A stretch of DNA of 36,556 bases from IMG/VR virus record IMGVR_UViG_3300034101_002578, positions 1 through 36,556 of that record. One strand, given 5' to 3'. Source of the stretch: a virus. The position numbers were made by a program, and so were the translations under genes. Below are positions 16,571 through 17,279 of this stretch, piece by piece (within the stretch, counting starts at the first letter, position 1; each line of letters starts with the position of its first letter). A model generated the notes under the pieces. It saw nothing but the letters and a program-made list of their open reading frames with translations, was not told the DNA's origin and made no database searches.

Positions 16571-16794
16571 TGATGTATGTTGCTGTGGTGTTTAATCGGG
16601 CGGGTTTGCGCTTTGTCGCTACCCACGATAGCGCCCGGTCTGCCGTGTACTATGTCCGGCGGTCGGTTCGGGGTTCAGTTCGTCACGGCTTCGGCGGTCG
16701 TGGCTATGTGTTGGTGGTGCCTGTCGGGTCGGTGTCGGTGTCGGGGTTCGTTGTTCGGGGTCTGATTTATTCGTTTAATAGTGAGGTGCTGTGA
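16570..16794 (+). CDS. Small hypothetical protein
   Basis: A 74-residue protein starting with ATG at 16570 (TAATG overlap with the preceding stop). It has short strands (YVAVVFNRAGLRFVATH) and a basic Arg/Gly-rich middle. It lacks a clear ribosome site, so translation may rely on coupling. Some of its sequence is built on the local GTCGG words, which lowers certainty that it is under protein-level selection. Confidence 0.4.
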   Translation: MMYVAVVFNRAGLRFVATHDSARSAVYYVRRSVRGSVRHGFGGRGYVLVVPVGSVSVSGFVVRGLIYSFNSEVL

Positions 16795-17279
16795 TGCCTG
16801 TAACAGTTCGTGAGTATTTCGAGGGTATGTCACAGTATGACTATGATGTGTTGGCGCATCGTGTTCGTCTTTCGGTTTGGCGGTTTGTCGGCTGGGATAA
16901 CACGGCTGATATCTTGCATGACGTGGTGGCTAGTCGGGGCGATTATCCTCTAATGACCAGCTTCTGTGAATCTATGGTCGTTGGCTTGTGCAAGTCACGG
17001 GCAATAGATGTATATCGGTCTGCCCGCCGTCGGCGTGAGGTTAATTTTAACGATGGGGTTTCCTACGGATCCCCTACCGTTGATAGCGCCTTAATGTTCG
17101 CTGATTTGGTCGGCTGTCTGCCTGTTAAATATCAGGCGGTGTTGACCCTCCATTACTTCTATAGTTATAAGTTCCATGAGATATCCCTAATGTTGGGCGT
17201 GTCTGAGGGTGCATGTAAACAGATGCGTAATCGTGGGGTTAGGCTGTTGGCTGGTAAGTATGGGGTCAATTTGGATTAG
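16794..17279 (+). CDS. ECF-like RNA polymerase sigma factor
   Basis: A 161-residue protein. The N-terminal half (ADILHDVVASR, then VGLCKSRAIDVYRSARRRRE) matches sigma70 region 2, including the basic helix that reads the -10 element. The C-terminal half (LPVKYQAVLTLHYFYSYKF then EISLMLGVSEGACKQM and RNRGVRLL) matches region 4.2, the HTH that reads the -35 element. Size and the two-domain layout fit the ECF group or a small phage sigma. It would redirect host polymerase to phage promoters. GAGGTG precedes the ATG at 16794, which overlaps the prior stop as TGATG. A strong terminator follows. Inactive relatives exist, so activity is inference. Confidence 0.8.
   Translation: MPVTVREYFEGMSQYDYDVLAHRVRLSVWRFVGWDNTADILHDVVASRGDYPLMTSFCESMVVGLCKSRAIDVYRSARRRREVNFNDGVSYGSPTVDSALMFADLVGCLPVKYQAVLTLHYFYSYKFHEISLMLGVSEGACKQMRNRGVRLLAGKYGVNLD

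Follow-up and report, generated by a model that had tools for sequence, protein, structure and literature searches.

The DNA analyzed here (the window) is the whole 36,556-nt stretch of the virus record IMGVR_UViG_3300034101_002578, positions 1 to 36,556. Its two ends, positions 1-127 and 36430-36556, repeat each other over 127 nt and split a capsid gene. Thus, the genome is probably complete, about 36.43 kb when drawn as a circle, and the window is probably nearly a whole phage genome. When its terminase was searched against phage records, all 1372 matches were below 60% identity, and the best among the 20 listed was 27%. A run of 30 glycines was found in the tape-measure-like protein (29860-33189). 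The features studied here are a short operon containing the gene of a small ECF-like sigma factor and a set of six bipartite, promoter-like sites elsewhere in the window (Table 1).

Table 1. Features of the sigma operon and the bipartite sites in the window, with their counterparts in the sister phage G001
Feature	Position	Strand	Description	G001 counterpart
Putative host-type promoter of the sigma operon, TTGACA-N18-TACAAT	16162-16191	+	11/12 consensus matches, best within 14000-27000	TTGACA-N17-TACAAT at 21820
Short ORFs upstream of the sigma gene	16254-16794	+	Within the sigma operon	Likewise several short ORFs before the sigma gene
Sigma gene	16794-17279	+	Open ORF, 161 aa, ECF-like architecture	Sigma gene at the same place
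Predicted region 2 module	16833-17033	+	Residues 14-80, three helices, DxxHDV at 39-44	
Region 4 module	17079-17261	+	Residues 96-156, helix-turn-helix	
Putative terminator hairpin of the sigma operon	17292-17323	+	14-bp stem then T-run; -22.6 kcal/mol, z -7.7	Hairpin after the sigma gene, -28.7 kcal/mol, z -6.2
Bipartite site, GTACCT-N16-CGGTAT	14440-14467	-	Before the late (structural) gene run starting at 14412	18539(-)
Bipartite site	19121-19148	-	Before gene 19086-18403	24607(-)
Bipartite site	19301-19328	+	Before the gene at 19364	24764(+)
Bipartite site, GTATCT variant	19775-19802	+	Before the gene at about 19819	25245(+), same relative place
Bipartite site	20184-20211	+	Before the genes at about 20228-21232	25857(+)
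Bipartite site	21270-21297	+	Before the replication gene run, about 21333-26834	26920(+)

A sister phage, G001 (IMGVR_UViG_3300047457_000632; 36,973 nt), was largely collinear with the window, and the terminase, portal, and O-like proteins of the two were 85%, 81%, and 64% identical, respectively. Two fragments, L003 and L004, encode terminases 79 to 80% identical over their full length. The sigma operon of G001 lies at the same place, with short ORFs before the sigma gene and a strong hairpin after it. The two sigma factors were 29 to 36% identical depending on the alignment, which is among the lowest values of the mapped genes, together with some other early genes (30 to 37%).

The original prediction had recognized features of sigma regions 2 and 4 in the protein, and both were borne out. 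Region 4 was identified by PF08281 (E 1.9e-10; 40.7 bits, cut-off 25.7), and the G001 sigma also scored above this cut-off. Pfam, queried with the window sigma alone, did not detect region 2, and the score of the NCBIfam ECF model was 26.6, below its cut-off of 42.9. PHROG 1740 (RNA polymerase sigma factor) matched residues 15 to 155 of the window sigma (E 6.6e-7) and also the G001 sigma (E 2.6e-10) and gp47 of phage 7-11 (E 1.1e-38). A profile made of the window and G001 sigmas only was compared with the PDB, and all 20 sequences matched at E up to 0.1 were sigma factors. The best of them was the Mycobacterium tuberculosis ECF factor SigL, to which both modules were aligned (SigL 30-167, E 4.3e-6); the profile also aligned to AlgU across both modules. 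An N-terminal profile matched 11 bacterial ECFs over 44 columns (hhalign 95.7%, E 9.3e-9), these ECFs having been recruited partly by the DxxHDV motif. The SigL match of the two-sigma profile is independent of that recruitment.

Structure prediction pointed the same way. With 14 input sequences, the best of five AlphaFold models of the window sigma had a mean pLDDT of 80.0 and a pTM of 0.52, and the other four reached 63 to 65. In the best model, the region 2 helices span residues 14 to 32, 34 to 48, and 58 to 80, region 4 consists of four helices, and the linker (residues 82 to 95) is poorly defined and of low confidence. The length of 161 aa and the model of two modules joined by a linker fit a sigma factor without regions 1.1 or 3. 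Since the input alignment held bacterial ECFs found partly by DxxHDV, a sigma-like model was a favored outcome. In Foldseek, ECF sigmas were the first-ranked PDB matches and covered most of the length of the model; two had E values up to 0.001. The TM-scores were 0.3 to 0.4, because the two modules are placed differently. The region 4 model compared with region 4 of SigR and SigD (VIA-align) gave a Z of 9.8, which is middling for a helical model. For the G001 sigma, the mean pLDDT was 68.5 and region 2 was weak. Taken together, the profile alignment and the AlphaFold model support a region 2 beside the region 4, indicating that the window sigma has both ECF modules. In both phages, DxxHDV in region 2 and an arginine at the place that reads the -35 element are kept at about 30% sigma identity.

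An ordinary TTGACA-N18-TACAAT promoter had been proposed for the sigma operon, and such a sequence is present with 11 of 12 consensus positions and has a counterpart in G001. No bipartite site was found before the sigma operon of the window. Three short ORFs beside the window sigma and two beside the G001 sigma gave no Pfam match at E 0.1; thus, no anti-sigma factor was seen among them. G/T-rich tandem repeats flank the window operon on both sides (16073-16141 and 17374-17703), and in G001 simple repeats of other letters lie just before the sigma-operon promoter and after the sigma terminator.

The six window sites fit the directional pattern GTAYCT-N16-CGGTW. The blocks GTACCT and CGGTWT that had been proposed stood in part: GTACCT was found at five of the six sites, the remaining one reading GTATCT, and four sites have CGGTAT as the second hexamer, the other two CGGTTA; CGGTW therefore describes it and CGGTWT does not. 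The proposed 16-nt spacer was present at every site in the window and at all six G001 sites. When a T-rich version of the pattern was searched with up to three mismatches, seven matches were obtained in the window (the six sites and 23512 on the plus strand), against 0.32 expected in shuffles; a looser pattern gave 11 matches against 3.5 expected. In a blind count of 354,219 spaced 4-mer pairs, the top pair of the window was ACCT-N16-CGGT (p 1.7e-7, about 0.06 when corrected for the number of pairs), with five of its eight places being sites. In G001, the same motif came first in the form CGTA-N20-GGTA (p 7.3e-7, about 0.26 after correction), with 6 of 10 places being sites. Neither first rank is significant by itself after correction, so neither is decisive alone. 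In six other phages, the first-ranked pairs differed from this motif.

Three further matches, in or at genes, were left out of the site set. One at 13809(+) lies antisense inside 13342-14034, one at 22657(+) begins at the start of the ORF at 22653, and the one at 23512(+) lies inside the O-like replication gene. The G001 counterpart of the last, at 29053, reads CGTACC, unlike the CGTATC of the other G001 sites; thus, protein coding is the likelier cause of the 23512 match, and a functional internal promoter there appears less likely. A weight matrix built across the two genomes recovered, among its top 14 scores, three of the six window sites (19775, 14467, and 21270) and five of the six G001 sites (18539, 25245, 24764, 25857, and 24607). 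In four control phages, its best scores reached 11.6 (G004, 14926), above several true sites. With this partial recovery and these control scores, the matrix was rejected as support. An exact promoter pattern searched over all viral contigs gave four contigs (L012 to L015) with one match each, which we read as chance.

All 12 sites of the two phages have one orientation relative to the next gene. In the window, a start codon with a Shine-Dalgarno match of at least four bases lies 16 to 35 nt past the second hexamer, the two 16-nt cases being 4-base motifs; in G001, such a start with a match of at least four bases lies 22 to 52 nt past it. The best sigma-70 match near the 12 sites averaged 7.4 of 12 positions, compared with 7.1 (standard deviation 0.9) at 3000 random positions. 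The minus-strand run behind the 14440 site continues through the terminase, portal, capsid, and tail genes to 26734. Within 1-14500 and 26700-36556, terminator-like sites were no more frequent than in shuffles, and those on the minus strand were weak. Were every site to drive all of the run that follows it, the six units would cover 32,308 of 36,429 bases (about 89%), which by this assumption is an upper bound. Outside the six units lie the sigma operon and the lysis genes (14971-15935), for which no clear promoter was found, the best match having 8 of 12 positions.

A 76-nt segment with CTACTCGG...AAATTCGCGCG occurs at 19263-19338 and 20146-20221, each copy directly upstream of a bipartite site and the two being 93% alike; a weaker copy (61%) lies at 17822-17897, and similar segments precede G001 sites. 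It is possibly an upstream element. An RNA hairpin at 19260 was no better than those of shuffles, and a pattern for the repeated CTACTCGG element, too strict to find the window copies, returned one copy only, in G001. Strong terminator hairpins at 21238-21271 and 19739-19768 stop inside a bipartite site or immediately before one, so a single T-run may belong to a terminator and a promoter alike.

The six sites of G001 stand at places corresponding to those of the window, and the downstream genes are homologous for five of the six pairs, homology not being shown for window 19775 and G001 25245. The GTA, the C at position 5, the CGGT, and the 16-nt gap are identical in 12 of 12 sites. The first block reads GTATC in six of six G001 sites, where the window has GTACC in five of six, and 16 nt separate GTAYCT or GTATCG from the CG in all 12. 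Position 4 is C in five of six window sites and T in six of six G001 sites (Fisher p 0.015, a post hoc test). Flanks are duplicated within each genome (around 19263 and 20146 in the window; nearly identical around 24764 and 25245 in G001), so the sites are not fully independent and the counts overstate their independence. Three orthologous pairs whose flanks are not duplicated (14440, 19121, and 21270) all show C against T. Overall, the left half changes from TACC in the window to TATC in G001 and the right half, GGT, is unchanged. This independent change of the halves fits reading by two distinct domains, not by a symmetric dimer.

More distant relatives were used to follow the sigma and the sites together. 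The loci encoding a terminase relative numbered 24, and 11 such records besides G001, six of them under 25 kb, were examined as DNA. A 14-sequence sigma profile found the window, G001, and an unrelated phage, G011, and found no sigma in 12 other phage records (the 11 terminase relatives and G010). This search included the positive records and was relied on for absence; earlier domain and profile searches, one of them without a positive record, gave no sigma over the cut-off in 16 records. Most of the replication and late genes are retained in five relatives longer than 30 kb. G007, with a 73-nt end repeat, is the sole distant relative shown to be complete; since the others may be fragments, only for G007 is the absence firm. 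In all 11 records, the searches for the sigma and for the site set were negative. Exact CGTAYC-N17-CGGTW occurred seven times in the window (five of the six sites and two of the matches left out), seven times in G001 (the six sites and one other), and once in total across the 11 relatives. With one mismatch, 9 of the 11 relatives had 1 to 4 matches each, 19 in total against 43 for a reversed control pattern, whereas the window and G001 had 9 each against 3 each for the control. When 25 window genes were tested, the presence pattern of the sigma was shared by the gp88-like gene, the genes at 14068, 19364, and 21300, and the XRE gene (13342-14034).

The window sigma used as query retrieved no relatives from the viral contigs and none at E 0.01 from 50,697 phage records. 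A search with A1 found G001 and G011. In G011 (IMGVR_UViG_3300032260_000013), an ECF-like sigma is encoded at L031 1195-1677; no window-like gene over 50 bits was detected there, and the blind count gave no comparable site set. Weak PF08281 matches in G017, G020, and G029 were rejected as below the cut-off, and the one in G020 is an HTH relative of window 25786-26412. The window and G001 are the only two phages seen to carry the sigma-site pair.

On this evidence, we consider it about 80% probable that a phage ECF-type sigma, made first from a host-type promoter, directs host polymerase to the six sites. Early in infection, host polymerase with the host main sigma would transcribe the short sigma operon from TTGACA-N18-TACAAT. 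The phage sigma would then bind host core polymerase, its region 4 reading the GTAYC block as a -35 element and its region 2 reading the CGGT block, 16 nt downstream, as a -10 element. It would thereby start transcription of the small early units, of the replication genes, and of the long run of late structural genes. Core binding, recognition of the sites, the order in time, and the driving of a whole run by each site are all steps that we infer. In effect, the sigma probably redirects the host transcription machinery to six start signals before most other genes of the virus. The pairing of sigma and sites, put forward in the original prediction as a hypothesis, gained support as such from the conserved placement and spacing in G001 and from a -35 block that differs in concert with a fast-diverging sigma. 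It also agrees with the joint absence of both parts from the distant relatives examined, with the lack of a sigma-70 signal at the sites, and with the precedent of phage 7-11.

Published work on ECF factors fits this pairing in several respects. ECF holoenzymes are described as needing strict -35/-10 spacing (PMC6411747), and many of them as preferring C-G just upstream of the -10 element (PMC6372665). Provided that the sites are the sigma's promoters, their fixed spacing and the C-G at the start of the second block are ECF-like in 12 of 12 cases. By the numbering given in PMC6411747, the distance from the SigH -35 element (-34 to -29) to the CG place before the -10 would also be 16 nt. R186 of M. 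tuberculosis SigH is reported to read the first G of the -35 element (PMC6411747); in the ungapped SigL alignment, R147 of the window sigma stands at this place, and all 12 sites have this G. Position 4 falls where M181 of SigH, which reads -31, acts. The corresponding residue is K in both phages and only a neighboring contact residue differs (Q143 in the window, S150 in G001), so the structure neither predicts nor forbids the change at position 4.

Another DNA-binding protein of the phage may read the sites instead. The XRE protein (13342-14034) or the HTH protein (11210-11890) would then activate or repress host-sigma promoters, and the sigma would do something else. The XRE protein scores above the PF01381 cut-off (E 2.1e-7) and has a 52% identical counterpart in G001, and no counterpart was found in the 11 other relatives; because it shares the presence pattern of the sigma, it stays a rival reader. 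In the window, TACC...GGTA also resembles an inverted repeat. However, the difference in the left half of the G001 sites is not mirrored in the right half, the spacing is fixed at 16, orientation to the next gene is single in 12 of 12 sites, and no sigma-70 signal is adjacent. The XRE gene itself lies downstream of the 14440 site, and the HTH protein at 11210 has a weak relative (30%) in G026, a sigma-less record that is a 16-kb fragment. We therefore regard a reader of this kind as unlikely.

It is less probable still that a host sigma, whether the main one or an alternative one, uses the sites as its promoters and that the phage protein is a degenerate sigma or a decoy. Phages are able to rely on host sigmas, and the A/T-rich letters after CGGT can resemble a -10 element, but sigma-70 signal at the sites does not rise above that at random positions. 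Relatives with matching gene modules, whose hosts may differ, yielded neither the sites nor the sigma, and the keeping of DxxHDV and the -35-reading arginine in both phages at about 30% identity also speaks against this reading. Very improbable, in our view, is that the repeats are terminator tails or other signals, for example of replication. The strong terminator hairpin at 21238-21271 does run into a site, its T-run being the T-run of the site, and another hairpin precedes the 19775 site. At G001 25245, however, the two T-runs are separate. The divergent sites at 19121 and 19301 lie in one intergenic gap whose two flanking genes point outward, which leaves no gene end just upstream of either site. 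In addition, the CGGT and the spacing are fixed, and 12 of 12 sites face a likely start.

A mechanism of this kind is already known from Salmonella phage 7-11, and by analogy the window is best described as another such sigma-promoter pair. In PMC8948821, the sigma SaPh711_gp47 with Escherichia coli core is reported to direct eight promoters, GTAAtg-(16)-aCTA, which need the phage sigma in vitro, and the sigma itself is presumably first made from early sigma-70 promoters. The 7-11 system resembles the present one in its small phage sigma with region 4 and a PHROG 1740 match, as in the window and G001 sigmas, and, by the published promoters, in the two-part structure, the -35 block starting with GTA, and the 16-nt spacing. 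The proteins themselves are 12% identical (7-11 gp47 against the window sigma), and their hhalign match is not significant. The letters RNR in region 4 of gp47 (MAFFT) were not used, as the alignment needs a four-residue gap. There are also differences. As described in PMC8948821, the 7-11 sigma drives late genes and is encoded deep in a long cluster, and feedback via the late promoter P48 is proposed. Unlike this, the window sigma has its own short operon with no site before it, and sites stand before the replication genes too; the -10 block differs, and 7-11 is a 90-kb phage compared with 36 kb here. The short dedicated operon and the sigma-type sites before replication genes thus seem to set the window apart. 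TGATGT is the motif that a previous computational study had named for 7-11 (PMC4331800). It differs from the one later mapped experimentally, which is a warning about motif inference from sequence alone.

In phage phiEco32, gp36 is likewise reported as a phage sigma that switches host polymerase to middle and late genes, and gp79 as activating the gp36 promoters in vitro (PMC8948821). An annotation calls gp36 ECF; PMC8948821 describes a single-element promoter, tAATGTAtA, and no homology to region 4. The window and G001 each have six shared promoter-like sites before non-early units, as in a switch of the 7-11 or phiEco32 type, their promoter role being deduced from sequence. Bacterial ECF sigmas such as M. 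tuberculosis SigL and SigH share with the window sigma the region 2 and region 4 modules, the short linker, and the strict spacing, and many ECF holoenzymes favor the C-G before the -10, as far as described in PMC6372665 and PMC6411747. Identity to the SigL and SigH chains was 12 to 23% in the structural alignments listed, and the -35 element given for SigH, GGAAYA (PMC6411747), is unlike the GTAYC block.

Our literature search for uncultivated phages with such a sigma-promoter pair found nothing relevant. The authors of the 7-11 study (2022) predict that related phages will show hybrid variants or additional sigma gene-promoter pairs (PMC8948821). The window would be a pair of the predicted kind, apparently from a different phage group, and the six sites of its sister phage show a concerted difference alongside a diverged sigma. 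It offers a compact, testable example of joint change in a sigma factor and the full set of its promoters, and a candidate for a minimal, dedicated promoter system. A broader reading, which we advance tentatively and with somewhat less than even confidence, is that in this branch of tailed phages of about 36 kb a small ECF sigma acts alone as the early master switch for almost all of the genome, including replication. The sigma and its promoters would have diverged together into GTACC and GTATC variants, possibly non-interchangeable, and would have been gained or lost as a unit in the wider group. If true, the two variants would make a natural pair of phage switches.

Arrays of TAGAAAAAACTTCTA-like units were also observed at window 14653-14773 and 23237-23387. 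Positions 19079-19201 of G001 match the 14653-14773 array at 90% and also match the 23237-23387 array. From their sequence, these arrays look like the iterons of replication origins, one array lying within the O-like replication gene and the second before the late run.
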